Made by a program: the position numbers and the translations under genes. A stretch of 64,000 nucleotides of DNA from Malus domestica (taxonomy: Eukaryota; Streptophyta; Magnoliopsida; Rosales; Rosaceae), in assembly GCF_042453785.1 (NCBI RefSeq), contig NC_091669.1:8816501-8880500 (forward strand). The letters are read 5' to 3'. The notes below the pieces were generated by a model that was not told the DNA's origin, ran no database searches, and saw only the letters and a list, made by a program, of their open reading frames with translations. Of the stretch, positions 1-39,101 are shown in pieces (position 1 is the first letter of the stretch; each line of letters begins with the position of its first letter).

Positions 1-12
1 TATAATGCCTAC

Positions 13-6164: not shown

Positions 6165-6250
6165 ACACATTTATTTCTACTTTCTTCAGCTTTGTCAAGC
6201 TGGTTTCCACCATTCATACACTCTCTTTTGACCAGGCATCCCTCTCCAAC

Positions 6251-7685: not shown

Positions 7686-7732
7686 TTTCCACCATTCGTA
7701 CACTCTCTTTTGACCAGGCATCCCTCTCCAAC

Positions 7733-9600: not shown

Positions 9601-9608
9601 TTGAAGTT

Positions 9609-10430: not shown

Positions 10431-10466
10431 GACTCTTTCACCCAACAAGCACAACCCGCTGAAGAG

Positions 10467-16056: not shown

Positions 16057-16059
<3 letters not shown>

Positions 16060-16100
<41 letters not shown>
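16060..16100. repeat. (TA)n microsatellite
   Basis: A run of alternating TA of about 38 bases inside the gypsy element, followed by AT-rich sequence and A-tracts. Confidence 0.9.
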
Positions 16101-16101
<1 letters not shown>

Positions 16102-16569
16102 GAAAATTCAAAAAAAAATTGAAAATTAAAAAAAAAAAAATTGCATAGGCCTCCTCTTCTTTGGGCCTAACAACTTTCATAACAAATATATATGAAAGGG
16201 GAGTTTTGGGCTACCACTTAGAAAGGAAAATGGTGAAATTTTGTTACTTTGGAAACTTGGCTACTAGCAAGACACCTCTTTCGTCAACTTCCTCGACCGG
16301 AGACTTGGGGGACTCCTACCATATGCTATTGCACCTTGATATTCGAAAGTCTCACGACCATTCAATGACTTGGATTTTTCAAGTCTCCAACCGAGAAGTT
16401 TTCCTCACTTGGGAAATTAAGGGAGCACTACCTCAACCTACATGCTTCACTCACAAAACTTCAACATACAAGCTTCAACAAAAGAAAAAATTCAAAGAAC
16501 TTAGTGAAGAAGACTTTGGTGTATTTAACACAATACGTTGAAATGAAGCAAAGCTTATTTATTGATATC

Positions 16570-17045
16570 TCTGAGAAGTTACAAATATGTACATATACAT
16601 GAATCAAAATAAACAAATAAGAAGGAGCCTTCACAAAGGTTGCTCAAGAGAAGTCTCAGCAGTCGGCAGAGCCCCAGAAAGAGAAGGCACCGGAGGGTGA
16701 TCATTCAGAGCCTCAGTACTGGGCAGAACCCCAGAAGGAGGAGGCACTGGAGGTTGATCATTTGGAGCTTCATTACGCGGTATAGCCCCAGAAGACGAAG
16801 GCAATAAATGCCTTTGGAACAAACCACAAACCTCTGATAATTAAGTAAAATCTGACCATCAGATTCCTGTAGCTGGTCAAGCTTCATCTTCATGTTTGTA
16901 GCATAGTCATGTGCGAGCCTGTGCAACTGTTTATTCACATGCTATAACCCTCTGATCTCCTGTTTGAGACTTATCGCTTCAGTCGCCAATGACTCAACTT
17001 GGCGGGTTCGAGCAAATAGGCGTTGGGTCATATTAGACACAGAAC
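16570..17045 (-). pseudogene. Antisense accessory ORF of the Tat-like element (coiled coil plus Pro-rich repeats), broken
   Basis: On the strand opposite to gag-pol, reading from about 17042 down, the frame gives MTQRLFARTRQVESLATE, then ISLKQEIRGL, a stop, then NKQLHRLAHDYATNMKMKLD. This has a heptad-like pattern and would form a coiled coil. After a one-base shift near 16820 it continues as FQRHLLPSSSG followed by three tandem Pro-rich repeats (PRNEAPNDQPPVPPPSG, PSTEALNDHPPVPSLSG and a shorter one) and ends at 16631. Tat-lineage elements are known to carry extra ORFs, often antisense, between integrase and the 3' LTR. The function is unknown. Confidence 0.6.
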
Positions 17046-17082
17046 CTGCACATTGAACACTAAGAGCCAGACTTCCAACAGG

Positions 17083-17594
17083 ATTACTTGCTCAAAAATC
17101 GAAAAGGCACCGGTCTCCAAATCTCGAGAGCTAGACTCCTACTAGGATTGCTTTCTCAAAAATCGAAGAGGCACCGCTATCCGAATCTCGAGAGCCAGAC
17201 TCCCAACAGGATTGCTTACTCAAAAATCGAAGAGGCATCCACTCTCCGAATCTCGAGAGTCATACTCCTAACAGGATTACTTGCTCAAAAATGGAAGAGG
17301 CACCGCTCTCCAAATCTCGAGAACCAGACTCCCACCAGGATTGCTTTCTCACAAATCGAAGAGGCACCGTTATCCGAATCTCGAGAGCCAGACTCCCAAC
17401 AGGATTACTTTCTCAAAAATTGAAAAGGCACCGCTCTCCGAATCTCGAAAGCCAAACTCCCAACATGATTGCTTTCTCAAAAATCGAAGAGGCACCGTTC
17501 TCCGAATCTCGAGAGCTATATCCCCGATAGGATTGCTTGTTTGAAAACCGAAAAGGCATCACTCTCCGAACTTCGAGACCCATATTTCCTTGGA
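17083..17594 (+). repeat. 64-bp tandem repeat, 8 copies
   Basis: Units start GATTGCTT or GATTACTT at about 17083, 17147, 17211, 17275, 17339, 17403, 17467 and 17531. Each contains CTCAAAAATCGAAGAGGCA and a TCTCGAGA palindrome. They give spurious open frames in all phases. The array lies upstream of the start of the antisense frame. Confidence 0.88.
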
Positions 17595-18905
17595 TAAAGC
17601 TTGTCTGCAATCTTCACACGCAACATCAGCTTTCCAGATACCACAGACCACTTTTTCAAAGTGCTGTGACAAAGTTAAAACACGTGAATCTTGCAGCTCC
17701 CACTACATTGCTATGATCGAGAAGGGTAAAGGAATATCGTTACTACTCACTGTTGGGACAATTCCTATATATGTCGACCTTCATCCTCCACAGCCAGGCA
17801 AACCTGCAAATAAAAAATATGCTCAACTTTTCTTCACATCCGAGAGAGCACTCTCAGCAGCGTCTCTTGAAATACTTAGCTTATTTTCCCCCGATAATAC
17901 CTCTGCAAACAAGCCATACCAGAGCAAGTGTGTCTCATATCATCAGCGTTAAAAGTAAGAGTATCTCATATCATGCTTTTTCCCTGTCTTTTCCTTCGCC
18001 CTTGTTCTTACCTGTAAGACAATGAAAAAGAGAGCAATCAGTCAGCACTTTGAATCAAGCTTCCAGTCAGGAACTGACTGCCTGGAACCCCTTGCCTGAT
18101 TACTTACCTGGCATTGCTCTTGAGTACTCATCTTCAATATCTTGTGCTTCCAGAGAAGATACCACATCTGCCTAAGGAACATATAGGGCAAGTGAGAATG
18201 ATACAAGGAAGCATGTGGAGACAAGCGCAACAGAACACGTACCGATTTATCTATTGCATTGTCAACAGCAAAAGTATCTCATATCATCAAGTTCGAACAC
18301 ACTCTTGATTTGATGAACTTGTATTGACCCTCAAATTCTTGAGTTGACCTTATACTCTGGAGGAAACCAGAAAACCCTCCAACCTAGTTCAAGAATAAGT
18401 CTGTGGAAAGTTACTTCTTCAAAAGCAAAAGTACATCATATCATCTATTCTCCATGTCCTTTTCTTTGTCCTTGTTGATGTCTACAGAACAAAGAGAATG
18501 AGAACAATCAGCCGGAACACGAGATCAAACTTTCGATCTGAGACTGACTGCTTGGAACTCTGATTGCTTACTTTGTCTGTCACCTCTTTCGGCAGATCTC
18601 CTCGCTCAGAGACTTAGGGGACTCCTACTATAGGGTTTGTATTGCACTTGACCAAGCCCAAAAGTACAAGTAAGCTTCAAGTGAAATTGATACATTACCT
18701 TGTGCATCTCCATCGGTTAAAGATATCACCCCTAGATGGAGGAAAAGTACTTCCAGAGAAGATGCCACATCTACTATGAGACAGATAAGGCAAGTGAAAA
18801 TGATACCACACTTCGGTACTTAAAAGTTTCGTAATTACTCAGCGGCTCGGATCTCGCAAGTCCCCAACCGAGGAGCTTCCCTCACTCGGGAACTTAGGGG
18901 AGCAT
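17595..18905 (+). repeat. Gypsy 3' non-coding region up to the polypurine tract
   Basis: No protein is recognised. Words such as AAGTATCTCATATCATC and AGACTTAGGGGACTCCTAC recur at several places. The polypurine tract proper is AACTTAGGGGAGCAT at 18891-18905, immediately before the 3' LTR. Confidence 0.6.
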
Positions 18906-19386
18906 TGATTGTACCATACTTGACCAATCTCGAAACTACTAAGCACCGATCAACGTGATACCGTCAAGGACCCAGAAGAGTTTCCCTCCAACCAGGAGGC
19001 CAATCACAGTGCGACACGTGTCAACATCAAAAGCCAATCACAACACGACAAGTGTCAATTCAGAACAAAGCTAGAAACTCTCTTCTATAAAAGGAAATCA
19101 TTCTCCCACAATATTTCCTGATGTCATTTGTACTAAATCATTCACTAGTACTCACTAAAAGAGAGCTTGAACCTATGTACTTGTGTAAACCCTTCATAAT
19201 TAATGAGAACTCCTCTACTCTGTGGACGTAGCCAATCTGAGTGAACCACGTACATCTTGTGTTTTGCTTTCCTGTCTCTATCCATTTACATACTTACCCA
19301 CATTAGTGACCGGAGCAATCTAGTGAAGGTCACAAACTTGACACTTTCTGTTGTACCAAAGTCCTCGCCGATTTTGTGCATCAACA
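18906..19386 (+). repeat. 3' LTR of the gypsy element
   Basis: 481 bp, starting TGATTGTACC and ending TGCATCAACA. It has a TATA box at 19086-19092 and two CCAAT/ACGTG repeat units (18999-19062), against three in the 5' LTR. The right flank AGTTT (19387-19391) is the imperfect partner of GGTTT at the left. Confidence 0.92.
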
Positions 19387-19981
19387 AGTTTCATGGCAAC
19401 TTTATACTGAAATTGGAAAGCTTAACGCCCTCAAGGTATTCAACCAATTACTAGCTGGAAGATGCCTTACCCTAAAAAACCGTGCACGAAAAAACTAGCT
19501 GCCGTTGAAGACGTAGTAAAAAAATCTCAAAATTTCTTCAATAGAAAAGCTTAATTAAGAGCTTGAAATTTCTTCACACTAAAAAAAGTAGCCCCGAATT
19601 AAGATGCCTTAATTAAGATGTTTAATTGCAATGTAGTTGAAGAATCATATCCTATAATTAGTAATTAATTAAGCTGCTTCTAGTTTTAGAACATGAATTA
19701 CCACCACTATGTATGGCCCCAGGTTAGTTCATTGTCAATTACCACTTCTTTAACATGTTGTTCTCCATGCTTCCTCTCCAAGTCAGTACGTACTCAAATT
19801 GTTTCTTCCAAGCAAACCTAGTTGCTGCAGCCACCAGCACCCTGATCAACGCCAAGTCCACCACCGCGACAACGCCTATAATTTGTTTAAACTTTATGGC
19901 ATGACTTGTGGGAATCCTCGCAATAATAATTTTAAAGAATTCTTCACATCATAGCACGGAATTCCAGCTCAACTCTATCTC
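19387..19981. other. Duplicated spacer (5' flank of polygalacturonase copy 2, continued)
   Basis: This continues the 5' flank of copy 2 after the gypsy insertion. It matches about 190-760 and about 29480-30050. No gene is seen. Confidence 0.65.
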
Positions 19982-21323
19982 GAAGTGACGGAGCCAAGGA
20001 CAAGGTTCCCTATAGGATATAGCATAGGGAGAGTTTTGGATTTTTAAGTTTAAAAATAGTAATCTTTTGGGCTATTTAATGATTTTTAACAGTCATTTTC
20101 CACTTAGTAAATGTAAATTTTGAATCTTAAAGATGTTTTTAAGGAAAATAAGAGCCACTAAATGTTAAATACTCATCATTTTAACTAATATTATAATTTA
20201 GTAACAATTTAAAACTTTCATACTACAAATGATTCCTTATTTTATTCACTTAAAAGTTTTGAAGACTACAAGCCTAGAAAACATAGTATATATTTCTTAC
20301 TTCAAAGAGTAAATTACATTTTACCACCTCAGGTTTGACTGTTTGAGGTCTATTGCAACCTCATACAATAACTTCAAAACATTTCACTTTCATACCTCAA
20401 GTACTATTTTATTTTAATATAATAGATCCGTTACATTTTTCATCCATTGATCCGTTAAGAGCTCACGTGGCTGCCAAATTTATGTCACGTGGCAAAAAAT
20501 AATTTTTTATACATTAAAAATATTATAATAATTTACCCTACTAAAAAAAATAAACTGAAAACCCAAAAACCCATTCCCCTTGACCACCTCCTTCTCCTTC
20601 CTCTCTTCAAACCCTCCACCACCAAAACCCTCAAAAAACCCTATTCCCACCGCAACCATCTTCGTCTTCTTCCTCTCCGACTCTGCTCATCGTTTACTGG
20701 GCATTCCCATTTGGGTAATGAAAATGCCCGATTACGATTATGGGAGGAAAGAGAGAAAGTGTGGGAACGAAGCCCCATGCTACTGGGTTGGGGAGTGAAA
20801 GAGAGGTCGGGGGGGGGGGGGGGGGGGGCACGTGGGTTTGCGGGGGAGGTGGGGATGGGGTGGGATTGGGGGTTTGGGTTGCGAGGAAGGGGAAGGTGTC
20901 GGGGAAGGATTTCTAGGTTTATTTATTTATTTATTTATTATTATTATTTAAATAGGGTAAATTATTATAATATTTTAAATGTATATAATAATAAAAAAAT
21001 TGCCACGTGGCACAAATGTGGCATCCACATCAGCTCTTAACGGACCAATGGATGGAAAATGTAATGCATGTATTATATTGAAATAAAATAGTACATGGGG
21101 TATGAAAATGAAATTTTTTGAAGATGTTGTATGAGGTTGCAATAAACCTCAAACATGAGGTGATAAAGTGTAATTTAAACTACTTGAAATTATTACTTTC
21201 AGATTTACTATTATATAACTTTATTTATGTAACAAAAAGATTATTGACAAAAAAAAAACAAAAAGATTAAAAGTTTAATTAACTTTGCCCACCCACGTCC
21301 GAAATTCTTGGCTACGGCATTGC
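19982..21323. mobile_element. hAT-like element with a nested Mutator-like element
   Basis: The ends read GAAGTGACGGAGCCAAGGA at the left and, on the reverse strand, GCAATGCCGTAGCCAAGAA at the right, similar to the widespread GTGGCGGAGCCA terminus of plant hAT elements. Flanks share an ATCTC word (left TATCTC, right CATCTC). The body is interrupted by an 874-bp Mutator-like element at 20307-21180, so the element itself is only about 470 bp and has no coding capacity. Confidence 0.6.
20307..21180. mobile_element. Mutator-like non-autonomous element, 874 bp
   Basis: Inverted repeats of about 220 bp flank a GC-richer centre. The ends are GAGTAAATTACATTTTACC and, reversed, GTTTAAATTACACTTTATC. 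The 9-bp target duplication is TACTTCAAA (20298-20306) and TACTTGAAA (21181-21189), one mismatch. The centre (20560-20900) has a coding-like composition and a G-run of about 20 at 20809-20828, and may be captured sequence, but I recognise no protein. Confidence 0.8.
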
Positions 21324-21594
21324 CATCTCAATTGTTCCCTTTATAGTCTACTCTTCACTGATCGCGAATTGGTACATCACTTTACTTGCTAGAAACAATT
21401 ACAAAGACGAGCATCTACTATTACGTACTCAGGCAAGTATCGGTTTTCTATCACAAGGAGTTTCTCTCCATGACTAACGTTGTCGCTAACGGTTGTACCA
21501 AGATCCTATTCATCTGAAGAATGAGAAGCAAGTGCGTGCCAGTGCTTCTGCCTCGTTGATGTTAATTTGTCAAGGATTGAATTGTAGCTGTGGT

Positions 21595-22826
21595 TAGGAA
21601 TGGACAACGCTTATGGCAGGCGGGTAACCGTGGTTATTTACCCATAACCGTTTACCCGTTGGATAATTGCATAAGCAGTTATACTTATAAACGGTTATCC
21701 ATACCCATAACCGTGTACCCATTTAAGCATAATCATTTACCCATTTAACCATAATCATTTACCCATTTACCCGTTTATCCTTTTTTTACTCATATACCCC
21801 TTTTTTCACACGTCTACATGTTTTTTTTTAACAACTTGAAAATTACAAAAGAAAAAAATTGCCATAATTTTCGTTTTCTGACAATTAAACACCGTTATAG
21901 GTACATTTTAGCATGCATTTTCCTATTTTAATCATTTAAATCCTCATACAATTTCAATAAATTGAAATAATAGTTTACGAACAATATTTTTCTTCTACAT
22001 CCAAGCAAGTCTTTAATTATAATCCATATGATTACAAAGTAAAGCTTCTAAAAACAAAAAGTAGTCATTATCTTGAATACTAGATGATTCAAAGCTACAA
22101 AATATTCTGAAACTAAACACTTTCGAACACATTCAATGACAAAGTATCATCGACTCGTTATAACAGCGGGTAATACTCATATAACTGTATAACCTAACAG
22201 TAAATGTTTTGATGTATTAAAAGCCCTATGTATCATCGACTCGTTATAACAGCGGGTAATACTCATATAACTGTATAACCTAACAGTAAATGTTTTGATG
22301 TATTAAAAGCCCTATAAAAAAAACTCACGGACTGAATTAAAAGCCCAACTAATAGTAAATGTTTTTTTTTTCCAAATTTACACCTGACAGAACCTAACCA
22401 AGCCAGTTCACTGTCTTTGCCTTTTTCTGTCGCATATGGGGCTTTTGGTGTTGCGGTTGCCTCCTTTTCCACACCCACCACTGTCAGTTACCTTTTTTTT
22501 AAAAAAAAATATTTTTTTTGTTGTTGTTTGTCAAGGGTACATTTGGAAAAAAAGCATTTACACTATAAAGTCCTTTTTTTTTATTTACATATATTAAATT
22601 AAATGGGTAAATAGATACCCGTATAATCGCAGGTAATACCCATAATCGGTGGATACCCGTTATAACCGTGGATAATACCCATAACCACCCATTTAAATTT
22701 CACAGATAAACGGTTATACCCATAACCGTTTATTCGTCTAAACGGTTACCCATAACTGTAACCGTGAACTTTAAATGGGCTGGTAACCGCGGTTACCCAA
22801 ACCCATAGGTATTTTGCCCATCCCTA
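21595..22826. mobile_element. hAT-type non-autonomous element, 1.23 kb
   Basis: The ends are TAGGAATGGACAAC and, reversed, TAGGGATGGGCAAA, followed on both sides by GGGTAACCGNGGTTA-type repeats that recur through the termini. The 8-bp target duplication is GCTGTGGT / GTTGTGGT (one mismatch). The centre is AT-rich with an exact 86-bp tandem duplication starting near 22144 and 22230. No transposase is seen. The 190-bp element at 3440 belongs to the same family. Confidence 0.85.
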
Positions 22827-23807
22827 GTTGTGGTTGAGGATTTGAGGGACGAAATTGTGGGGTTCAAATGTGGCAATGCAGGGTGGTTTTAGGGTCGAAA
22901 GAGGATCGCATTCCGTGAGTAGGCTTGTAGACGTTGAAATTTCAGTAAAATAAATGCTCACCAACACCTTAAATTTTGACATGCATGGGCTTACGTGGCA
23001 TGCACCGTTGGTCTCACATATTGTACACATTACATGTGACTCATCAAAACTAGACGAGTCATTAAGGAAAGTAATTAAGGAATTATCTTTATTAATTATT
23101 TAATTAATTTTAATTTAAATCAAAACAAATTAATTGATTTAAAATGTCAACCAAACCCAAAATCAAGTCTTGTGTTCTTTCGTCAATGAATCAAGTCCAC
23201 AATCAATGTCAAATCTAGTCGTAGGCAAAGACTTGGAGAACCTATAAATACGCGACTTCAAGACAAATAAAAGGGTCAGAAATACATCCAAACACACAGA
23301 TGCTCAAACTCCCAAATTACCAAACACTCAGAAAGCTCTTGCATTCTTCGCCACACTTGTGAAGCACCCCTACACATGTCCATTCTTCCATCACCACTAG
23401 CCAAACCCTTCCGGCATCCGTTCATTCAAGATCAAGTTATCGTGATCCTCGGATCAAAAACACCCCCATTTTTCACTCCGAAGATTGAATATGTGGATTC
23501 AAGTTTTGTAAAGAGATTGTAACTTTAAATTTATTAACACAAATTATTACTTTGTACTCATATTCTTGTGTTATTTGTTGCAGGAATCTCGTGTTTACAA
23601 AGCAATTGAGGGTTGATTGTGATTTTGTCAGCCTTGAGAATGGAACTGACGGGGCATTGTTTGGTGGATCAAGTAAATGTGATGTTGAGGGTAATTAAAA
23701 ATGATCGTTCATTTTTATGTATTTGCTTCAAACTATACTCGTGCTACCTTTATATATGTATTCTTTTGACTTGCGATGTAGCTCACTTGACTAAAAGCAT
23801 TTATTCA
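22827..23807. other. Duplicated spacer with plant-gene-like but non-coding sequence
   Basis: This matches about 1070-1960 and in part 30290-30400 plus 33870-34040. It holds short frames but no protein family. Nothing else is seen. Confidence 0.6.
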
Positions 23808-24765: not shown

Positions 24766-25710
24766 TCATTTTTCCCTATCTCTCACTTACTCCTTTTTCC
24801 CTATCTCTCACTCACTCTCAATCTTGCCAAAAGGTATTTTCTCTCTAAACTTTAATTTATTTCTCATTAATATGTGTTTTTGGAGTTAATTTTAGGTTTG
24901 GGTGGGGTTTGGGGTCGAGTATAGGGTGAGGGGTGGAGTTTGGGGTATGCCGATTTTAGAGGAGGTTATGTCCATTTTTTGGTATTATTTTATGTTGTTC
25001 TTTTGGTTATTTGACCATTTTTTTTTTGTTGGGAATCGTCTGGACTTTGACGGTGAAAGTTGAGCAGTTGAGGATTATGACGCTATCAAACCATATCCCC
25101 CGCCACCACCACCACTACAATAGACTTGTATTAGGATTTTATTATTGTAATTTGTTAATTTATATGTACCTTTTGAATAAAATGTATATTATGGATAATT
25201 TGATCACTATTTTTCATATGCAATTTTATTTTAAATATGTCAATTTAAATTAAAGTAATTAAAAAAAATAAAGCCATATAATTAAATTAAATTTAAAAAG
25301 TAAAAATTCAAAACATCTTGCGCTACCAAATATTACGTCACACAAACAATTACTATAATTAAATTAATAATAGAAATAATAAAACAAAAAGTCAATTTAA
25401 TTAAACAAAAAAATAAAAACCAAAAACTTTCGTCACGCAAAATCTTGCGCTACCAAATATTTCATCACGCAATATATTAAATTAATTCAATTAAATCAAA
25501 AAATCAAAAACTTTGCGCAACAAAATGTTTCGTCGCACAAAGTACCATCACATGACGAAGATTAATTTTCATCACGCAAACACTATCTTCACGAGCTTAG
25601 CGCAACGAACCATGCGCGACAAAAAATTTTTGCGCAAGGTTTTAAGCGACGAAATCTTACTTTGCGCAACAAATCTTATTTCGTCGCGCAAAGTGTTTTT
25701 TGTAGTAGTA
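23808..25710. mobile_element. CACTA-type non-autonomous element, 1.9 kb
   Basis: It begins CACTAGTAAAAAAAAATCCC and ends TTTTTTGTAGTAG, near-inverted. Both subterminal regions are packed with copies of a TTTCGTCGCGCAAAG-like word in direct and inverted orientation, a feature of CACTA (EnSpm) elements. It splits the SINE-like piece of the duplicated spacer. A (CT)n run of about 60 bp lies inside (24699-24759). No transposase remains. Confidence 0.8.
24699..24759 (+). repeat. (CT)n microsatellite inside the CACTA element
   Basis: About 30 CT units, followed by less regular CTCTCA repeats and a GT-like donor context. The polypyrimidine stretch could be the 5' leader of a captured gene, but no coding exon is recognised. 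Confidence 0.9.
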
Positions 25711-26277
25711 TCGTACACTCGAAGTCATAAGTTCTATTCCCACTTCCCCCAATATTTGCTTGCATAAAAAACTCTTGTAAAAGTCTAAGGTTCTAGTAAA
25801 TAAATGTGACTACTTAAGTGCATCAGTTATAAGGAAATAGCTATCGTTAGAAGGTCTAAACAAACTAAAAAGTGTCATATTCCAACAACTTGGATGTCCT
25901 TGTAATTTTTATTTTCGTTTAAAAGATAAATGAAAAAGTTCGACAATCACCCAATAACACTGTTACACATTAGACGAAAGTAAAATTAATTTTAATTTAT
26001 TTAAAAATAAAAAATAAAAAATATTATGTGATTCAAAATATTCTTCTTAACTTGTAAGTGAAATATTTTAGATTCAAATCCCTTGTAAAAATTCATTACT
26101 AGCTAGGGAGCTCTAGAGTAATGAATACAAGATTTCTTTTGTCATTTTTTCTATAAGATAAGTTTGAACAAAAATCTCAATCGTCAACCCACACTCATCT
26201 CATGCCATTTGAGAAAGTCTCATGGGTAACTTATTTACAACGCACGACAAAACCAAAAAACAAAAACAAAAATTTAT
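25711..26277. other. Duplicated spacer, 3' flank of polygalacturonase copy 3
   Basis: Matches about 1975-2440 and 35350-35800. No gene is seen. Confidence 0.6.
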
Positions 26278-27278
26278 GGGAAAATTAGGTTCACATCCTT
26301 TTTTTTGTTACTCCATTGATTAAGATTCTATTCATTTTCAATTTTTGATCAAAGTCCTTGGGTATTAATAACATCATTAATTATTTGAATGATAAAATAT
26401 TTTTTATTTTTAAATATATTCCTTTAGTGTTAAAAATGTTATAATTAGTATATTTATATTTATGGCTAAATTTTTTATCATATTTTTTTTTTTAGTTTGT
26501 ACCTATTTTTAATTTGCAAATATTTTTTAATTTGTACCAATTTTCTTTTCATTTTTAATTTGTACCCATATATTAGTTTCTTTTTGTGCCCATATTTTTT
26601 AAAGTTTTATTTGTGTTTGTACCCATGTGTAAACCGTCACGTAACATTGTATATTTAATCAATGATAGAAACATTACATATGGTATATTTATGTTTTATG
26701 CCTAAACTTTGTATCATATATTTATATTTTTAGTTTGTACCCACTTTTAATTTGCAACATTTTTTTTAAATTTGTAGTATTTTCTTTTTAGTTTTATTTT
26801 GTACCCATGTATTAATTTCTTTTAGCGCCTATATTTTTTAAAAATTCATTTGTACTTATAATTTTTAATCTTTTATCTGTACCCTAATTTATTTATAATG
26901 TACCCATTCTTCTTTATTAATGTACCACTTTGTTATATATGAAATGTAAAATGTACCAATTTTTTTAACACTATGGATACATTCTTTTGCCATTTATTAT
27001 TTCTTATTTTTACATAGTTTTTATCCATTTATTCAATCAAAATGTTTGACTTTTTTTATTGTAACCGTTTCTAATAGTATTATAATGAGGGATTTTAAAT
27101 TTATAAGATTATAAATCTCAAAAAATATCAAACAATTAATGTCAAAACTATAAAAATATTAATATTAATAGTCATATAATGAGGTGTACAAAGTTAAGGG
27201 ACCTTGATCAAACTTTGAATACTATTAAGGTTTTAATCAAAGAATGTTAAGGATTAGGGGCCGCATCCAAAGTATCCC
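26278..27278. mobile_element. AT-rich DNA transposon, 1.0 kb, 9-bp target duplication
   Basis: The 1001-bp stretch is absent from the other units. It is bounded by exact copies of AAAATTTAT (26269-26277 and 27279-27287). The ends are GGGAAAATTAGGTTCACATCC in part, and GGGATACTTTGGATGCGGCC reversed, so the inverted repeat is short and imperfect. A 9-bp duplication suggests a Mutator-type element. Inside, TTTGTACCCAT-like words recur many times. No coding region. Confidence 0.75.
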
Positions 27279-27311
27279 AAAATTTATTCACAACGAGTAA
27301 TTGGTTTATTT

Positions 27312-29417
27312 TCAAGAAGATGTAGCACAAGCAAGAGGCTGCGCCACGTTGTTGATGGTGGGCTTGATATGTTTACATTCAGACGTAATAGAGCCTTCTT
27401 TTCCAGTGTATGTGAGATCAATGTTACTCAATTCCACATTCTCACATGGCAGCCCTCCACTGCATACAAGCTTAATACCAACTGGGGTTGAAGATGAACC
27501 CTTTATGTTCTTGAAGCTGACATTGCTGATCTTAACTTTGGATGGAACCTGCATACAATGATACAATAATAGTATTATTATAAAGCACTTTTACTGTTAA
27601 ATATTTTATATAAAATTGTTATTATAAATATGTCGAAGAAGTTATTACAAATTCAGTTTTTTTTTTTTTTTTTTTTTTTTGAAAAATGCTAGAAGTGTGT
27701 TTGGTTGATAGAAAATTTTTAAAACCCTTTCAGAAACAATCAAACGGTGCACTCAGGTATTTATTCAAAATAGTTGAGATTGGGGTCAAGAGATCAAACG
27801 GTCGTCGGTTGTATTCTATTATTCAAGATTAAGTATTTGACTAAGTAATAAAGAAAATATGATGTAACTTTGGTACTGTAAAATAGTATACCTGAAGTGT
27901 GCACTGATTATATGGGCAATACTCTTGGTCTATGATGACAGGGTTTTTAACATTATCCATGATAATATCCTCAAAGTGAACATCTGAGACAACGCCATTT
28001 GCAGGGGAAGCAGGCCATGTTTTGATCCTCACACCATTATCTGTATTTGTAATTGTGCAGTTCTTGATAAATATTCCAGACACAGGTTCTTCATTCTCAT
28101 ACTTTCCGAGGCTCCCGATGCTTATGCCGTGGCCTGGTCCACAAGTAACGTTGGTTACATGGAGTTGCTTGGTGCCATCACCAATAGAGATGCAATCATC
28201 CCCAGTTCCAATGGTCGTATCTGTGATGTTGATCCCAGTTGAACGTCCGATATGAATTCCATCGGTATTGATGCTTTCTTTAGGCGCTGAGACGGTAAAA
28301 TGTTGGAATGCCACATTGTTGCAACCCAAAAGATTTACGTGGAAATTTTTGCTGTCTTTTGTTGTTATGTCTCGAATTATGGAATTGGTGACAAAATTGA
28401 ATCTCAGATTCTGCGAATAGTGTGAAAAAGTTAAAACATATACAAACAAGACGAGTAATATTTCTTGCCAAAGTTATGTTGTCAGGAAAAATTCTTATAT
28501 TATCATACTGTGAATAAATATTGCAGATTACCAACATGTTCGATGGCTTAGATTTGCTCCCTGACATATACACCTTTTTCACATATATGGGATCAGCTAT
28601 CAGGCACCATATATTCATAGAAGAGTATGATCAACCGTATAGTTTCACAATCTAGCAATAGATTTTAATTATAAAAGAACAAGATTTAAATTATCTTACG
28701 ATAGCAATAGATTTGCAATTTTTGTTTTTGTTGCAGTCATTTTGCTTCCAAGCAGTTGCTCCTAGGCCATCGAAAGTTCCACCACCGGATAAGGTGAGCC
28801 CATCAATGCGCTCAAAACCTATCCAAGTATCTGCTTTTGGGAGTTGGCTGCCATCTTCTGGAGCCTGCAATGTGCCCTGAAGCTGAAACTCAATAGGGGC
28901 TTTGCATGGTCCTTTGAAAGTTGCCCCTACAAACTTGTATGTCCCACTTGGAACCACAATTTTACTTGCCGATGTCGATGCACATGCATCTGTCCAAGCT
29001 TTGCTCAAAGCCTAATTAAAACATTGAATAAAAATTAAAAATTGAAATGATTCTGTTTAATTACCCAACAATTCTAGAACGGAAATGATTTTCCACTTAT
29101 TAATTTTCCCCAAGCATATTTATTTCCTACTTCTAAATTAAACAAATCAAAAGAAAAATCAATAAACAAGAACAACAATGTGCAAAGACCAAAGAGTGTG
29201 TACGGAAGTAATTTCTGTTCTAACTCGAAATATTAGTTTAAAAATTCAAGAAGAATTACATGCATACATATATAATGCCTACCTGGGTAATATCAGAGTT
29301 TGCTTTTCCACCATAATTTGCACTTGTTACATCATAGACACCAGATTGGGCATTAGATGTGGATACTAACAACAAGGACACAAACATTGGCAAGATATTT
29401 TTCAGTTTCAAATCCAT
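27312..29417 (-). CDS. Exopolygalacturonase copy 3, intact, 4 exons
   Basis: A GH28 enzyme that removes galacturonic acid from the ends of pectin chains in the cell wall. Exons are 29283-29417, 28700-29011, 27892-28410 and 27312-27548: 1203 bp, 400 residues, all in phase 0 with GT/AG borders. Residues 1 to about 23 are a signal peptide ending SNA. The catalytic motifs are intact: NTD at 197-199, GTGDD with Asp220 and Asp221, GPGHG with His243, and RIK at 277-279. The plan and sequence match plant exopolygalacturonases, many of which are pollen-expressed; that expression is inferred. The start is the only ATG giving the signal peptide. Its neighbours are the pseudogene copy 2 downstream and copy 4 upstream, on the same strand. 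Confidence 0.95.
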
Positions 29418-30409
29418 CTTGAGTTTTCAATTCGGAATTAGTTTCTTACGTTTGGAAGTTCGATGAAAACTTTATTTTGGTTTCATCAGAACTTTATTCT
29501 CACATTGGAAAGCTTAACGCCCTCAAATTACTCAACCAATTATTAGCTATTTTTATGGAAGATGCCTCAACCCCAAAAACCGTGCACGAAAAAAACTAGC
29601 CGCCGTTGATTTATTCAAAAGAAAAGCTTAATTAAGAGCTTGAAATTCCTCACAAAATTTCTTCCAAGACAGGGAAATAACCCCGAATTAAGATGCCTTA
29701 ATTAAGATGTTTAATTGCAATGTAGTTCAAGAATTGTATCCTATAATTAGTAATTAATTAAGCTGCTTATAGTTTTAGAACATCAATTACCACCACTACG
29801 TATGGCCCTCGGCTAGTTCAGTGTTCATTACCACTTCTTTAACATATTGTTCTCCATGCTGCCCCTCCAAGTCAGTACTCAAATTGTTTCTTCCAAGCAA
29901 ACCCTAGTTGCTGCAGCCACCAGCACCCCGATCAACGCCAACTCCACCACCGCGACACAACTACAACTTGTTTAAACTTGACGGCATTACTTGTGGGAAT
30001 CTTCAACAATTCTTCACATCATAGCATAATATTCCAGCTCAACTCCATCTCGGTCTCTCCCGTTATAGTCTACTCCTCTTCACTGACCGCAAATTGGTAC
30101 ATCACTTTACTCAATTACAAAGACATGAGCATCTACTATGACTTACTCATGCAAGTCTCGGTTTTCTATCACAAGGAGTTTCTCTCCATGACTAATGTCG
30201 TCGCTAACGGTTGTACCAAGATCCAATTCGTCTGAAGAATGAGACGCAAGTGCATGCCAGTGCTTTTGCCTCGTCGGTGTTTGTCAAGGATCTAGTTGTG
30301 GCTGCTATGTTTGAGGATTTCAGGGATGGAAACGTGGGGTTCGACGTGGCAGTGTAGGGTGCTTATAGGGTGTGGAAAGAGGATCGCATTCCGCAAGTAG
30401 GCTGTTGAG
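29418..30409. other. Duplicated spacer, 5' flank of polygalacturonase copy 3
   Basis: Matches about 150-1150 and the split spacer of copy 2. It probably contains the copy 3 promoter. No other gene is seen. Confidence 0.6.
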
Positions 30410-30912
30410 TAGGGGTGGGTTTAAAAAACCAAAAACTAAAAAAAAATCGAACTGAACACCGAACCAAAGCCGGAAAAAAAAAAATCAAACCAAGTGAACC
30501 GAATCGAAATAGGTTGGTTTGGTTTCGGTTTTGATGGTCCAGAAACCGAACAGGATCGAACCGAACCGATTTATATTTAATTATTTAATTGGGTTAATCT
30601 CAGTTTACTATCATGAAGCTTCTTGGTTTTCAACATTTAATACATGAAGTTTTTTTCATCCTAGAGTGGTATATAAAGCCATAATTTTGGGACACTTTCA
30701 TATATCCGTTAAGTTTTCTGTTAAATCAGTGGTTAACTGGTGACATGGCACTCATATGGACAGTGACTAGGCACCACGTGTCATCGGGGCCCACATAAAT
30801 ATTAAAAAAATTAAAAAAATTAAAAAAAAATGTTTTTGGGCCTTCCAACTTAACCCTCGACCCCCTCCCTCCCTTCTCTCCACTAAGCCTTCCAGCTCCC
30901 ACCTCCTCCTAA

Positions 30913-31080
30913 CCGCTGGCGATCGCCAAGGCTGCATCATCCTCCTCGACCTCCACCTGTCTCCCATCCTCTGGTTCGATACCGACTCCTCCCCCTCCAA
31001 ACTCGCCATACAGGACCTCGCATGGGTCCAGGCCCGACCTGACTCCTTCTACATCTCCTCCATCTTCGTCTACAACAACT
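30913..31080 (+). pseudogene. Captured WD40 (WDR11-like) gene fragment, left arm
   Basis: The reading AGDRQGCIILLDLHL, WFDTDSS, LAIQDLAWVQARPDS is typical of the region of WDR11 that follows a WD40 strand. One residue is missing compared with the right arm (HLSPIL against RLKSPIL). The fragment has no start, no splice frame and no downstream part. Identification is by recognition and should be tested. Confidence 0.55.
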
Positions 31081-31538
31081 CCACTAGCAAGGAGCTTGCT
31101 TTTCCCCTCCACGGTTCGTATTGCAACTCTCATTCATCTTCTCACTATAGTTTTTCCCCTCCATGGTGATTCACTGAAACGAATCCAAACAACTCACTCA
31201 CACTCAGTCACTCATCTCTTTCCCCCTATCTCTCCATTTCTCTCTTTAAGGTTTTAGTTTGGGTTCAATTGGAGTGGTCCGAAGATCAAAAAAGGCGGCA
31301 GTGGCGGTGGGGAAGCAGAGGCATCGGAGGAGGTGATGGTGACCGATTAGCTAATGGTATACAGAGGGGCGAAGAAAGAGAGAAGGTGTACGGCAAAAGA
31401 GCACATCAGCAAAATGCCTTTGTGCGCTGCTGGAAAATGTAGCTCCATTTACCGTGGAGACACTCGGTAATTAAGCTCCTCTTTCTCTTTCTGTTTGGTT
31501 GCTGAGAAAAAAAAAAGAAAGGAATTTTGATTAGATTT

Positions 31539-32053
31539 TGTTGATGCACAAAATCAGTGGGAACTTTGATACAACAAAAAATGTTAAGTTTGTGACCTTT
31601 GCTAAACTACTCTGGTCACTAGTGTGGATAAGTATGTAAATGGATAAAGACAGGGAAGCAAACACAAGATGTACGTGGTTCACCCAGATTGGTTACGTCC
31701 ACAGAGTAGAGGAGTTCTCATTAATTGTGAAGGGTTTACACAAGTACATAGGTTCAAGCTCTCCTTTAGTGAGTACTAGTGAATGATTTAGTACAAATGA
31801 CATAAGGAAATATTGTGACAGAATGATCTCTATTTATAGAAGAGAGTTTCTAGTTTCATTCTGACATTGACACGTGTCGTGTTGTGATTGGCCTCTGATG
31901 TCGACACGTGTCACGTTATGATTGGCCTCTGATGTTGACATGCGTCGCGTTGTGATTGGCCTCCTGATTGGAGGGAGACTCTTGTGGGTCCTTGGCGGTA
32001 TAATGTTGACCGGTGCTTAGTAGTTTCGAGGTTGGTCAAGTATGGTACAAACA
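31539..32053 (-). repeat. Solo LTR of the same gypsy family, minus orientation
   Basis: 515 bp. On the minus strand it starts TGTTTGTACCATACTTGACC and ends TGCATCAACA, as in the full element at 5641-19386. Flanks are GATTT and AATTT, a 5-bp duplication with one mismatch. It carries three CCAAT/ACGTG repeat units (31866-31960) and a degraded TATA region (TATTTATAG). No internal domain follows, so it was probably left by LTR-LTR recombination. Confidence 0.9.
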
Positions 32054-32229
32054 AATTTGATTAGGAATTTGGGTATGGAAATGTAGGCATAGGTGGACAA
32101 GTCATTATGAGGCTCATCTCTAGGATAAAAGTACTTGGATTCAAAACCAGAATAAGAAAGGAATCCGATGTCGTCATCAAGAAGCTTCAGATTCAAGCCA
32201 AATCTGATGTCGGCTGGTGAAGCTGTTGT

Positions 32230-32440
32230 AGAGAGAGAGGGAAGAGAATCCGGAGATGAAGGCAAAGAGGTAGAAGTCGGGTCGGGCCTGGACCCATGCG
32301 AGGTCCTGGATGGCGAGTTTGAAAGAGGATGAGTCAATATCGAACCAGAGGATGGGAGACTTGAGGCGGAGGTCGAGGAGGGTGATGCAGCCCTGGTGAT
32401 CGCCAGCGGCGTGGAGGAAGTGGGAGCTGGAAGGCTCAGT
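32230..32440 (-). pseudogene. Captured WD40 (WDR11-like) gene fragment, right arm
   Basis: Minus-strand frame with STEPSSSHFLHAAGDHQGC, then LLDLRLKSPILWFDIDSS, KLAIQDLAWVQARPD, ISGFSSLSLYN. It is the inverted copy of the left-arm block and extends a little further in the SLSLYN direction, which again fits WDR11. No complete gene. Confidence 0.58.
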
Positions 32441-33862
32441 GGAGAGAAATGAAGAAGGGAGTCGGGGTTGAGCTGGAAGGCCCAAAAACATTTTTAATTT
32501 TTAATTTTTTAATATTTATATGGGCCCTGATGACACGTGGCACCTAGTCACTGTCCACGTGAGTGCCATGTCACTAGTTAATGGCTGATTTAACAGCAAA
32601 CTTAATGGATATATGAAAGTGTCCCAAAATTGTGACTTTACGTACCACTCTAGGATGAAAAAAAATTCATGTATTAAATGTTGAAAACCAAGAATTTCAA
32701 GGTAGTAAACTGAGATTAACCCTATTTAATATATATTAATTATATAAATTATATACAAATACTCAAAATCTAGAGGCAAAAGTTTTTGAACCCCTTATAC
32801 CTCCTGGTTGAGAGTTTTTTGCTTCAGCCAACTTGATAACAAGCTTTGTGTAGTTATAATCATATTAGTAAAATATTTATACTGATTCTAGAGCTTTAAT
32901 TCTTTATAAGATTTCTAAACACAAAACCCTAGCCGTCCCATTTACTCCCATTTCATCTCCTTGTTCTGACTTATCAGCCTCTCTCTTCGACCTTTGAATT
33001 CTTGCATCTCCATAATTTCTTTGTTGAACGCTCGAATGTTTGCAACTACAAGCGATTTATACAAGGATTTGCAGCAATCCATTCATCATTTTCAGGTGGG
33101 TCACCGCCGCGATGCCAAATTCAAGAAGTTCAAGTTTGAAAACGGTGCTCTCGCTGTATCAATTTCATCTATTTTGTTTCGAAAACGGTGCTCTCGTTGT
33201 ATCAATTTCATCTATTTTGTTCCCAATCTTGTAAATTTGTTTAATTTGTGATTGAATGATTGGGTTCATAATCATTACCCCTGCAATGCTGATAAGCAAT
33301 GCACAAACGTGGAGTTTTCTTATATGTAACCTGACCAGAACTCATAACCCTTTTGATGCAAATTTTGAAATGTGCATTTTTTGTGCAAATTGGTTCTGAT
33401 TGGGTTATGATGCATCTGTGCAATGTGCATTTTTGTGCAAATTGGTTCTGATTAGGTTATGCTGCACCTGTTTTGCTTTTCTTGATTGTGCATGCCTCCC
33501 TTTCTGAATGGTTCTTGTTCCTCCACTCTCCATCATAATTAAAAGAAATTGTTGCAGAAAAGAGGAAGAAAACAAATGGCAGATCTTGAAGATGCAGGGT
33601 CCATTAAAATCTAAAATTTTATGTACCCAAAATTGCAATGATGAAGATTAGAGCAATGCAAGAGTGTTCAGAGCAAAGAAGAATCTAAAAAACCCGAACC
33701 GATTGGAATGTGATTGTTCTACACTAATTGGAAATTTTTAGGAATTTTTTTCACCATTGAAGAAAAAAAAAAATCGAACCGAACTGAAATCGAATCGAAA
33801 AAAAAAAGAACTGAAATTTCAATTCGATTTCAGTTTTAGCAAAAAAACAGAACCCAACCCTA

Positions 33863-34178
33863 CTGTTGAGGGTTGATTGTGATTGTCAGGGTTGAGATGT
33901 CAAACAATGGAACTGATGAAGCCTTGTCTGGTGGATCAAGTAAATTTGATGTTGAGATCATTTTTATGTACTGCTTCAAACTATGCCCGTGCTACCTTTA
34001 TATATGTATTATTCTTTTGACTTCCATTTAACTCAATTGACTAAAAGCAACTACCCTATATACTCAAGATCTCAAGTTCTATTCCCACTTCTCCCAATAT
34101 TTGCTTGCATAAAAAACTTTTGTAAAAGTTTAGGGTTCTAGTAAATAAAATTTGACTAGCTACTTCAGTGCATCAGTT
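33863..34178. other. Duplicated spacer between two insertions
   Basis: Matches about 1750-2060 and 23600-23800, including the SINE-like piece near 34025. No gene. Confidence 0.6.
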
Positions 34179-35352
34179 TGTTTGGACCCAAATTTACACC
34201 ATCGGCCCGTGTAATCAAGGTCATTGAGTAAGCATAGTTCTCAACCGTCAGATGAAAAAGTGAAGATATTTTTATTAAAGGATAATATTATGGTTTTTGT
34301 CATAGTAATTATTTTTTATTTTGGATTATCTTAGCATTATATCTTCGAACAAGTACAGTTCGAGTGAACTTGGGATTACTGCTATCAGACTGGAGAAACT
34401 TGGTAGATGAGGTTTGAAAAGTCATGGTGCATGCACAGATGGATTATGAAGAAGTCTAGATAGGCTTGGCTTTAGTGGTGATGTGATAAGTCTAAGATTT
34501 AATAGTCTTAGATAATGATGACAAGCCTAGGTAGGCTAGGCTATGATGATAAGACTTTTATTTGAATAGGCTTTTGTGAGGTTTGGAAAATCGTGAACAT
34601 CTATCTGAAGGATATGGTAGTTCTCTGATGCGGATTAATTTTAGTTCCGTGGAAAAGAATTGCAGTTGGACTCTACAAGCATCATCAGGCTGTGCCAGGT
34701 AGATATCAAACGCTATAAATACATGAAGGTTGTGCAGCATTGAGGACAACTCCAACTCAACACACAAACTGCCATGCGCAAACCCTCGCTCTACGCGAAA
34801 CCTCTCAACAACCTTGAGATTTTTATTTTCCTTTTTCACCAACACATCTTCAGTTTGGATAAACAGCACTGTGAAGGCAACTGGCGAACATCTTCAGTTT
34901 AAATAAACAGCACTGTTGCCGTAGAATCAGCTGACCGTAAAGCACCTTTAGTTTGGATAACCAGCATTGCGACAGGGTCGACTGGTTATCTATCCAAGTC
35001 TCGATCGAGAAGGATTTTCGAATCCTTATTGGCAGAGGTCATCTCATTAGCCTTTTCGACGAAGTGACGTGTTACAAGTTATTACATTCGGCACATTGGA
35101 AGCTGAATTTGATATTGAACTTCGCAGAACTAGCAGCCTTATCTTCAGGCTCTAGAATCCGAAGGCCGAGAGTGTTCCTTCCTCGGCCGCAGTCGCGAGA
35201 TTCATAAGTCAGCAGCGTACCCAACGCAACATCAACAAATTTTACTCCTCGGCCGACGAGTTGGCACGCCCGCACATAACCGAATGACGTAGTTAGCTTA
35301 TTAATTACTCGGCATGCGCGCCACGTAGGCTTGGTAGTTTTTAGGGTCAACA
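34179..35352 (+). repeat. Solo LTR of an unrelated family, 1.17 kb
   Basis: It begins TGTTTGGACCCAAATTT and ends GGGTCAACA, with an exact 5-bp duplication CAGTT (34174-34178 and 35353-35357). The paralogous spacers have an empty site here. A TATA-like CTATAAATACATGAAGG lies near 34710, as expected for an LTR promoter. There is no internal region or partner LTR in the window. Strand is assigned from the TATA position. Confidence 0.8.
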
Positions 35353-35811
35353 CAGTTATAAGGAAATAACTGTCGTTAGAAGGTCTAAACAGACTAAACA
35401 GAGAATGTCATATTCCAAAAACTTGGATGTCCTTGTAATTTTTGTTTTCGTTAAAAAAATGAAAAAAGTTCGATAATTACCCAATAACCCTGTCACAAAT
35501 TACACGAAAGTAAAATTCATTTTTATTTATTTAAAAATAAATAAAAATTAACACATAATACTATGTATTCTTCTTTTAGCTTGTAAATGAAATATTTTAG
35601 ACTATTCACTACAAGTTAGAGAACAATGGAGTAATGAACACAATTCTTGTCATTTTTTTATAAAGTGAGATTTGAACAAAAATCTCAACCGTCAACCCAC
35701 AGTCATCTCATGCCATTTGAGAAAAGTCTCATGGGTAGCTTATTTACGACGTACAACAAAAATTAAAATAAATAAATAAACACTTGTTTATAAGGAATAA
35801 TTGGTTTCTTT
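35353..35811. other. Duplicated spacer, 3' flank of polygalacturonase copy 4
   Basis: Matches about 2085-2450 and 25820-26270. No gene is seen. Confidence 0.6.
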
Positions 35812-37773
35812 TCAAGAAGAGGTCGCGCAAGCAAGAGCCCGTGCCACGTTGTTAATGGTGGGCTTGACATGCTTACATTGAGAGGTAATAGGGCCTTTGT
35901 TTCCACTGTATGTGAGATCAATGTCACTTAGTTGCACATTCTCACATGGCAGCCCTCCACTGCATACAATCTTAATACCGACTGGGGTTGAAGATGAGCC
36001 CTTTATGTTTTTGAAGCTGACATTGCTGATCTTAACTTTGGATGGAACCTGCATGCAATAATAGTATTATTAGAAAACACTTTTTCTCATAAATATATTT
36101 AATAAATAGATCAAAAAATTCAAGTGGATTTTCGAAAAACCGGAGTGCTTCCTGAAGACATGTACTATTCCAGAATGAACTCAGGTAGGTAGTCATTCAA
36201 AGTAGTGGAGGTTGGTGTCAATAGATCAGATGGCCATCGGTTGTATTCTATTATTCAAGATTAAGTATTTGACTAAATGATAAAGAAATTATGATGTTAA
36301 TTTTTGTGCAAAATAGTATACCTTAAGTGTGCACTGATTCCATGGACAATACTCTTGGTCTATGATGACAGGGTTTCCAACATTGTCCATAATAATATCC
36401 TCAAAGTGAACATCTGAGACTACACCATTTGATGGAGAAGCAGGCCATGTTTTGATTCTCACACCATTATCTGTATTTTTAATTGTGCAGTTCTTGATAA
36501 AGATTCCGGACACAGGTTCTTCATTCTGATATCTTCCGAGACTCCCGATGCTTATGCCATGGCCGGGTCCGCAAGTAACTTTGGTTACATGGAGTTGCTT
36601 GGTGCCATCACCTATAGAGATGCAATCATCCCCTGTTCCAATGGTTGAATCTGTGATGTTGATCCCAGTTGAACGTCCGATATGAATTCCATCTGTGTTC
36701 ATGCTCTCTTTAGGCGCTGAGACGGTAAAATGTTGGAATACCACATTGTTGCAACCCAAAACATTGACGTGGAAATTTTTGCTGTCTTTTGTTGTTATGT
36801 CCCGAATTATGGAATTGGTGACAAAATTGAACCTCAGATTCTGCGAATAATGTCTCATGCCAAAGTTACGTTTTGTCATAAAAAAAATTCTTATATTGTC
36901 AGATTGTGTATCAAAATTGCAAATTATTAACATGATCGATGACTTAGATTTGATGCCCGACACATACCCTTTTCAAATATATGGTCCGGCATCAGCCGTT
37001 TAGTTTCACAATCAAGCAATAGATTTAAATTATAAAAGAACAAGATTTAAATTTCTTACGATAGCAATAGATTTGCAATTTTTGTTTTTGTTGCAATCAT
37101 TTTGCTTCCAAGCAGTTGCTCCTTGGCCATCGAAAGTTCCACCACCGGATAAGGTGAGCCCATCAATGCGCTCAAAACCTACCCAGGTATCTGCTTTTGG
37201 GAGTTTGCTGCCATCTGCTGGAGCCTGCAGTGTGCCTTGGAGCTGAATCTCAATAGGAGCTTTGCATGGTCCTTTGAAAGTTGCCCCTACAAACTTGTAT
37301 GTCCCTCTTGGAACAACAATTTTACTTGCCAATGTCGATGCACATGCATCTGTCCAAGCTTTGCTAAAAGCCTAGATAAAAACATTGAATAAACATTAAA
37401 AACTGAAATGATTCAGTTTAATTACCAAACAATTTTAAAACGGAAATGATTTTTCGTATGCTCATTTTCTCCCATGCATATTTATTTCTTATTTCTTGGT
37501 TAAACAAATCAACGAAAAAAATCAAGAAAGTAAACAAGAAGGTGCAAAGACTAAAGAGTGTGTGCAGGAGTAATTTCTCATCTAAAAATATTAGTTTAGC
37601 ATTTCAAGAAGAATTAAATAAGCATATATAATGCCTACCTGGGATATATCAGAGTTTGCCTTTCCACCATATTTTGCACTAGTGACATCATAGATACTGG
37701 ATTTGGCGTTAGATGTGGATACTAACAACATGAACACAAACATGGGCAAGATACTTTTCAATTTCAAATCCAT
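35812..37773 (-). CDS. Exopolygalacturonase copy 4, intact, 4 exons
   Basis: GH28 pectin-degrading enzyme, secreted. Exons are 37639-37773, 37060-37371, 36322-36840 and 35812-36048, giving 1203 bp and 400 residues with the same intron phases as copy 3. The signal peptide ends SNA at about residue 23, followed by [16 protein letters not shown]. Catalytic motifs NTDGIH, GTGDDC, CGPGHG and RIK are all present at the copy 3 positions. It differs from copy 3 by scattered substitutions, for example [11 protein letters not shown] in place of [11 protein letters not shown] in exon 2. Its 5' flank is the most diverged of the array, which suggests it is the outer or oldest unit. Probably functional. 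Confidence 0.95.
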
Positions 37774-38138
37774 CTTGAGTTTTCAATTCAGAATTAGTTT
37801 CTTTTGTTTGAAAGTTTTTTTTCTTTTTTTTCTTTTTTTTTTGAAAACCTTTTGTTTGAAAGTTGGATGTAAACTTTATTTTGGTTTTAGCGCAATTTTA
37901 TACTTGGATTGGGACGCTTAACACCATCAAATTATTTAGCCAATTACAACCTTTTTTTATGCAAGATGCCTTACCCCAAAAAGCCGTGCACTAAAAAACC
38001 TACCTGTCATTGAAGTAGTCAAAATATTTCAAAATTGCTTAAAAAAAAAAAGCTTAATTAAGAGCTTGAAATTTCCTCCCTCACAACATTTCCAAGAAAC
38101 AAGGAAATATGCCCGAATTAAGATGTCTTTATAAACCG

Positions 38139-38302
38139 TAATGCTAGGAAGACTAAATTTGTAGATAAAATCTACAAATTAAATGATGTGTCACCAATAA
38201 GAATGAACACATTTATCAATGTTTAAGTAATAATCTAATCATCAACTTTCATGTCATTTAGTTTACAAAATTTTATGTACAAATTTAGTTTCCCTAGCAT
38301 TA
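38139..38302. mobile_element. MITE, about 164 bp
   Basis: Inverted ends TAATGCTAGGAAGACTAAAT and, reversed, TAATGCTAGGGAAACTAAAT. The equivalent position in the flanks of copies 1 to 3 lacks it. Confidence 0.75.
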
Positions 38303-38388
38303 TAGTTTTAGATTAATTAAGCTGTTTATAGTTTTAGAATTATATCCTATATTAGTAATTAATTAAGCGGCTTATAGTTTTAGATTAC

Positions 38389-38603
38389 CAACTAATACCT
38401 AGGCACTTACTAATGAGTACCTTATATACTCACTTTCTGAGAAGGCTCAATTAGATCTTAACAAATGTTTTATTGATGTAAAAAATAATAGACATGTTAA
38501 TTAATTTTTTAACTTTAAAAAATAATGAACACATGACATCTTTTAATTGGCCAAATTAGAAAGTGAGTATACACATTACTCAAAGAGTACCTAAGTATTA
38601 TCC
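38389..38603. mobile_element. MITE, about 215 bp
   Basis: Inverted ends ACTAATACCTAGGCACT and, reversed, GGATAATACTTAGGTACT; the TACTCACTTTCT word is also inverted. Flanked by TTACCA at the left and TTACCA at the right, against a single TTACCA in the other units. Confidence 0.75.
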
Positions 38604-39101
38604 TTACCACCACTATGTATGGTTCTTGGCTAGTTCAGTGTCTAATTTGCACGAAAGATGTTCAAAACAGGATGATTGAAAACAAGAGACTGAAGTACTA
38701 TGCCATCAACCATGTATATCCAAATTTAGTGCATATGTTAACCAAAACAAAATAATTTTTTTTCATATCCAGTATATAATCAACATGAAAAGTCCACGTA
38801 TTATAGACGTGATGGTAATATAGTTAGAAAAAATGTGGTACAAATAATATTGGTTTAGATAATTATGTTCTAATGTCATATTTGGACCTTCTCTTGAGCT
38901 CAATAAAGATATAAATAGTCTTTCTACGTTAAAAATATAATTAATTTTCTAATTAGTACTATATAAAGCCATTCTTCATTGGGATTTTCATTGTCTAAAA
39001 CCCTCTTTAACATATTTTCTTGTTCTCCATGCTTCCCCTCCAAGTCAGTACTCAAATTCATATTTTATTTAATCCATACCATCCAGTTTGGGTGGGTGGG
39101 G

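Follow-up and report, generated by a model that had tools for sequence, protein, structure and literature searches.

The element described here lies in a window of 64,000 nucleotides from the apple genome (G000:C9:8816501-8880500), and the genome searches reported below cover 651 Mb in 19 contigs. It is a non-autonomous Mutator-like element (MULE) of the Pack-MULE kind, in which one piece of a WDR11 gene is present in both arms of a long inverted repeat. The features are listed by their positions in the window, with strand where this applies.

30410..33862, no strand: outer hAT-like element holding the MULE, with the terminal inverted repeat (TIR) TAGGG(G/T)TGGGTT, 8-bp flanks CTGTTGAG at 30402-30409 and 33863-33870, and a repetitive right part
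30582..30590, no strand: left target site duplication (TSD) TATTTAATT, 8/9 identical to the right copy
30591..32722, no strand: non-autonomous MULE (Pack-MULE), recognized by its TIRs, near-identical 9-bp flanks, related TIR copies in the genome and an empty site in hAT-like copies
30591..30872, plus strand: left TIR proper, matching related TIRs as far as the WDR11 junction
30670..30677, plus strand: inward-pointing TATA-like site of the left TIR, at chance density
30873..31091, plus strand (sense on plus): captured piece of the WDR11 first exon in the left arm, identical to the WDR11 gene of contig C2 at 189/219 codon-aligned bases (PF23751)
31114..31538, plus strand: left part of the loop, a putative AP2-like gene locus piece, 76-77% to two loci on contig C12 and 82% to a partial match on C14
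31539..32053, minus strand: solo LTR inside the AP2-like piece
31831..31838, minus strand: TATA-like site in the solo LTR, pointing left, at chance density
32055..32163, plus strand: right part of the loop, in which the AP2-like piece continues directly after the left part, 91% to the C12 loci L039 and L040
32160..32194, plus strand: further 35-bp piece of WDR11 exon 1, opposite in orientation to the adjoining right arm and identical at 34/35 bases to positions 4687-4721 of the C2 host locus (L009)
32195..32209, no strand: 15-bp stretch between two WDR11 pieces, with no assigned source, delimited as the difference of the host matches
32210..32449, minus strand (sense on minus): captured WDR11 first-exon piece in the right arm, identical to C2 WDR11 at 214/240 codon-aligned bases (PF23751)
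32450..32722, minus strand: right TIR proper, matching related TIRs as far as the WDR11 junction
32723..32731, no strand: right TSD TATTTAATA, the form present once in aligned empty sites

The element starts with GGGTTAATCTCAGTTTACTA and ends with its reverse complement. Its arms span approximately 30591-31098 (508 nt) and 32193-32722 (530 nt), and 441 of 496 aligned bases are identical between them (88.9%), with higher identity in the outer TIR (91.3%) than in the WDR11 part (86.6%). The two arms are 86.3% identical over 498 in a MAFFT alignment and 85.7% identical by BLAST over 511 columns that include some flank, and the BLAST E value of 1e-163 excludes chance as the cause of the similarity. 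Arms of ~500 bp and a TIR proper of ~280 bp fall in the range of ~100-500 bp for MULE TIRs, and the 9-bp TSD has the length that is most frequent among MULE duplications of 8-11 bp. Among 10,404 pairs of 9-mers in the local flanks, only nine match at 8/9 or better. Thus, the Mutator-like element that an earlier sequence-only reading had placed at 30591..32722 is located there to the exact base by its TIRs, TSD and empty sites, and the inverted arms are present as proposed, albeit slightly shorter than the claimed ~540 bp. The idea that the inverted repeat is an assembly artefact, which could be entertained in that a single assembly was seen, can practically be dismissed, given that the arms differ at 55/496 aligned bases plus gaps and that the TSDs and empty sites are in order.

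There are seven hAT-like copies (the best of 51 matches listed, with the best 40 of 182 candidates scored) that were examined across the MULE insertion point, and all seven align straight across it. In the three copies that were aligned base by base, TATTTAATA is present once. Hence the insertion of the MULE into a hAT-like element is supported by empty sites. The outer element has the 8-bp TSD, short TIR and repetitive nature of hAT elements, and its own insertion is indicated mainly by TSD and TIR. Homology on its right flank begins at the TSD, and its empty site is not clean because paralogous host copies have ~570-680 bp more on the left. The window also holds a duplicated region in several diverged copies (~1-5640, 21300-23800, 25700-30400 and 33860-39060), in which a GH28 polygalacturonase (E 1.8e-65) is encoded by one open frame; another frame, at 36289-36972, looks similar by eye.

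Relatives of the TIR are common in the genome. A search with the left arm gave at least 55 matches (best 40 of 1641 candidates scored), mostly to the TIR only and often in inverted pairs. Eighteen TIR loci were fetched, three of which (L010, L020 and L027) have inverted arms of ~380 bp or more that reach beyond the TIR; no domain was found in the extended arms of four relatives, with one peptide frame scanned in each. Ends were set for 15 of the 18 loci (L017, L022 and L025 were dropped), and the TSDs match at 9/9 positions at the exact ends in six, at 8/9 in three, at 7/9 in one and at 6/9 or less in three, while two more reach 9/9 if the ends shift by up to four bases, a plain count to which no chance rate is attached. 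The TIR 20-mer gave no match in bacterial/archaeal and viral contigs. One locus, L018 (G000:C10:25239900-25243700), has four TIR matches, two of them side by side at its left end, and is reminiscent of the tandem-TIR MULEs that appear in the excerpted text of PMC3310237.

The captured piece matches the Pfam model for the first beta-propeller of WDR11 (PF23751) in both the right arm (E 1.5e-26) and the left arm (E 1.3e-18), and its DNA matches the host WDR11 gene on C2 at 175/200 bases in the left arm and 213/237 in the right. The proposal that a WDR11-like exon is captured in both arms is therefore upheld by a BLAST-type comparison with host WDR11, and the lack of host similarity that would have spoken against it is not what was found. 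The C2 gene (locus L009, minus strand) yields, in four open frames scanned, two matches to the first propeller (E 7.3e-173 and 1.9e-56) and one each to part of the second propeller and part of the WDR11 TPR domain. Its first exon is open across 342 codons, and the stretch captured corresponds to L009 5089 to 4850. A second WDR11 gene is located on C15, and its first exon is 92% identical to that of C2; presumably, C2 and C15 are homoeologues.

There are only five matches to the right-arm fragment in the genome: both arms, the WDR11 genes on C2 (90%) and C15 (87%), and a weak match on C12 (74%). The assembly thus yielded a single WDR11-bearing copy of the element. The 92-aa peptide of the right arm has no match up to E 10 in a PDB sequence search, and a WDR11 peptide search of viral contigs gave ten pattern matches, none of them confirmed. 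A diverged WDR11 exon-1 fragment is also present at positions 2854-2972 of locus L038 (G000:C12:2114000-2120000), where it is 77.5% identical to C2 over 120 bp. It lies beyond a pair of related TIRs (76-77%), at a distance of ~1 kb, and may represent another, older duplication.

The WDR11 frame is open in both arms, and dN/dS is 0.51-0.65. These features could suggest that the captured frame is expressed as a short protein. However, the nonsynonymous changes fit a neutral simulation, both between the two arms (22 observed against 22.5 expected, P 0.49) and between the host and the left arm (P 0.11) or the right arm (P 0.45), and the frames have neither a start context of their own nor a full propeller. 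Expression as a protein is thus highly improbable, and the captured frames appear to change in a manner compatible with neutrality. With dN/dS below 1 and gaps inside the WDR11 piece that are multiples of three, some coding constraint in the past is nevertheless possible.

In the relatives the family TIR ends ...CCCTCCCTTCTCTC, and the two arms of the present element switch from this TIR to WDR11 at an identical point, the motif TCTCC, which the family TIR and WDR11 have in common (three relatives were aligned, two of which extend to the junction). Compared with C2 alone, seven changed bases are common to both arms, 13 are left-only and 12 are right-only. When both arms, C2 and C15 are aligned over 196 columns, 152 columns are identical in all four sequences, and in four columns the arms share a state against both hosts. 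The arms agree with C2 against C15 in eight columns and with C15 against C2 in two, and the other columns comprise 13 left-only and 11 right-only changes, one in which C2 equals left and C15 equals right, two of other kinds and three with gaps. This distribution fits a single capture from the C2 lineage, after which the arms would have decayed separately. The alternative, two separate captures with one for each arm, draws on the 13 left-only and 11 right-only changes as a record of long separate histories, but the junction is the same in both arms, the arms have four states in common that neither host shows, and the likeness to C2 exceeds that to C15 by 8 to 2, which makes two captures very unlikely. 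The simplest reading of the two arms would be a strand switch during the copying of exon 1. The 35-bp WDR11 piece beside the right arm fits such a fold-back copy.

The loop between the arms consists mostly, outside its LTR, of the AP2-like piece. Both halves of this piece adjoin at the two C12 loci, and the C14 locus matches partly. Of five peptides, one, from two joined exons, gave a sub-threshold AP2 match (E 0.00096, 19.9 bits, cut-off 33.3), and the other four gave none. No Pfam match, to a transposase or otherwise, was found at E 0.1 in the loop frames scanned (4/6 of the left loop and 1/6 of the right loop). We consider the loop to be a second captured piece, tentatively from an AP2-like gene. 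As is characteristic of Pack-MULEs, the host gene fragments have parental loci, namely WDR11 on C2 and the loop loci on C12 and C14. The two C12 loci (L039 and L040, at ~8.87 and 9.25 Mb of G000:C12) are in opposite orientation on the same contig and are 93-94% identical in their two longest shared stretches and 75-88% in others. At 32160-32163, ~4 bp belong to both the AP2-like piece and the 35-bp piece of WDR11, possibly as the result of a microhomology join.

The solo LTR that had been recognized in the loop is present at 31539-32053. It has TG...CA ends and the flanks GATTT/AATTT (a TSD matching at 4/5 positions), and it matches, reversed, both LTRs of a full-length element elsewhere in the window. 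It is absent from L039 and L040, and these empty sites support its insertion into the loop; at the C14 locus, this position is occupied by different sequence. The full-length LTR retrotransposon (window ~5640-19387, plus strand) has LTRs that are 93% identical over 471 aligned bases and the flanks GGTTT/AGTTT, and is inserted in local duplicated sequence, of which a counterpart near 29480 is without the insertion. The solo LTR (31869-31968) and the full element's 5' LTR (5734-5834) each contain three 34-bp tandem repeats; approximately one unit is missing from the 3' LTR of the full element.

It had been suggested that the solo LTR brings its own promoter. A role of this promoter in driving the hairpin is not supported by its orientation. 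The LTR matches the LTRs of a plus-strand element in reverse, so that its promoter points left and reads through one arm only. The sense direction of WDR11 runs toward the loop in each arm, so that a promoter located between the arms would produce antisense RNA of a single arm. A transcript that crosses both arms would need to enter from outside or to start in a TIR. There are five TATA-like sites in the 3.5 kb, including the one in the left TIR that points inward and the one in the solo LTR that points left. This frequency is similar to that across the whole window (0.94 and 0.97 per kb on the two strands).

If such a transcript is made, it is predicted to fold into long double-stranded RNA, as had been proposed. 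The predicted fold of the plus strand contains 449 arm-arm pairs, of which 202 are between the WDR11 pieces, and it includes nine uninterrupted helices of at least 21 bp, the longest being 37 bp. Thus, in the predicted fold, the inverted duplication is able to form the long double-stranded RNA that is characteristic of hairpin loci. Exact 21-mers are shared with C2 WDR11 (23 in the left arm and 11 in the right) and with C15 WDR11 (9 left and 6 right), and small RNAs against WDR11 would be possible in principle.

Two further types of evidence were considered. CpG transitions between the arms are raised (12/36 versus 32/205, P 0.018), with P 0.0016 for the outer TIR taken by itself and P 0.58 for the WDR11 part. 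One of three host duplicate pairs shows a rise as well (P 0.0088; the others P 0.13 and 0.16), so the rise between the arms does not demonstrate silencing, and CpG decay was set aside as a trace of methylation for want of a clean contrast with host duplicates. An Rfam search of 29500-34500 gave only two sub-threshold matches to miRNA families (24.3 and 21.2 bits against a gathering score of 80), located at 33781-33836 and 34130-34192, outside the arms, and these are taken as chance.

One possibility is that the element is an active hairpin locus, wherein read-through or TIR-driven transcription yields long double-stranded RNA and, from it, small RNAs that repress one of the WDR11 genes or both. 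The predicted pairing, the long helices and the shared 21-mers are what such a locus would require, and Mu killer provides a published parallel (PMC3440606, as far as its excerpted text shows). On the other hand, the two arms have diverged by 11-16%, the LTR promoter reads through only one of them, the TATA-like sites occur at chance density and there is no sign of constraint, and we consider activity unlikely. The near-neutral change, the divergence of the arms, the LTR in the loop and the finding of no further copies all count against a present silencing role. In a rice MULE study, MULEs with diverged TIRs are proposed to fold into hairpins no longer, and TIR similarity, CHH methylation and 24-nt small RNAs from the TIRs fall with age (PMC4858842, in its excerpted text). 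A bolder version, to which we give even less credence, holds that the strand-switch capture itself built a palindromic host-gene hairpin whose small RNAs modulated the WDR11 genes in the past or do so now. If true, extended-TIR capture would lead directly to new loci for the silencing of host genes.

The reading that we consider probable as a whole is one of capture, nested insertion, decay and likely silence. A non-autonomous MULE acquired a part of exon 1 from a C2-lineage WDR11 gene, and strand-switch copying or TIR extension would have put this piece into both inverted arms. The MULE also took up a piece of a putative AP2-like gene, and we infer the order of the captures from the anatomy alone. 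The MULE inserted into the hAT-like element, and an LTR retrotransposon, now a solo LTR, landed in its loop. The element appears to be decaying with no visible coding constraint. An end-to-end transcript would fold back into an imperfect ~500-bp hairpin that includes a WDR11 segment, of the type that could be processed, as Dicer-like enzymes cut long hairpin RNAs. Most likely, however, the element is at present transcriptionally silent and gives rise to no more than 24-nt siRNAs against itself.

Among the literature matches listed, there is no printed account of this element or of WDR11 capture, which is no proof of absence. Extended-TIR capture is already described for MULEs, and this element is an unusually readable further case. 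Ferguson and Jiang (2012) mention MULEs with acquired sequence in extended TIRs and, in the excerpted text, the uptake of gene pieces by MULEs is called not yet understood (PMC3310237). The present element resembles those Pack-MULEs in its long TIRs, its 9-bp TSD and the presence of a captured exon in both extended arms. It differs from them, as they are described in that excerpt, in that the TIR, the donor-type gene, the junction, the second piece and two empty sites can all be read in one genome, and in its 35-bp remnant, the mark of a possible fold-back.

Other systems share some of these features. Turmoil-1 of C. elegans likewise carries host coding fragments in both inverted terminal repeats, but according to the excerpt it belongs to the Harbinger superfamily, resides in an animal host and has a full-length copy with a transposase (PMC2572040). 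Mu killer of maize is also an inverted duplication with Mutator sequence, whose proposed hairpin RNA serves as a source of siRNAs, whereas it duplicates a transposase gene and silences MuDR (PMC3440606, same excerpt); here a host-gene piece is duplicated, and the case is known from DNA alone. The maize transposon-captured sequences that are described as siRNA reservoirs in the excerpted part of a review (PMC13317346) similarly place donor-gene sequence in transposons, where it may feed siRNAs that act against the donor, but they are based on small RNA data and not on hairpins, and the apple element is read from its DNA. The model in which miRNAs are born from inverted duplications (PMC3237417) likewise starts from a potential target gene of which a part is present in inverted copies; in comparison, the arms described here are much longer and lie inside a transposon, and no miRNA locus is shown.

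The element also provides a natural test case for the question of whether an exon copied long ago from a host gene in inverted form is still a source of small RNAs. Since the family TIR, the donor-type exon, the junction, the left-over piece and two insertion sites are found together in one genome, a strand-switch model becomes concrete and can be tested in other copies.
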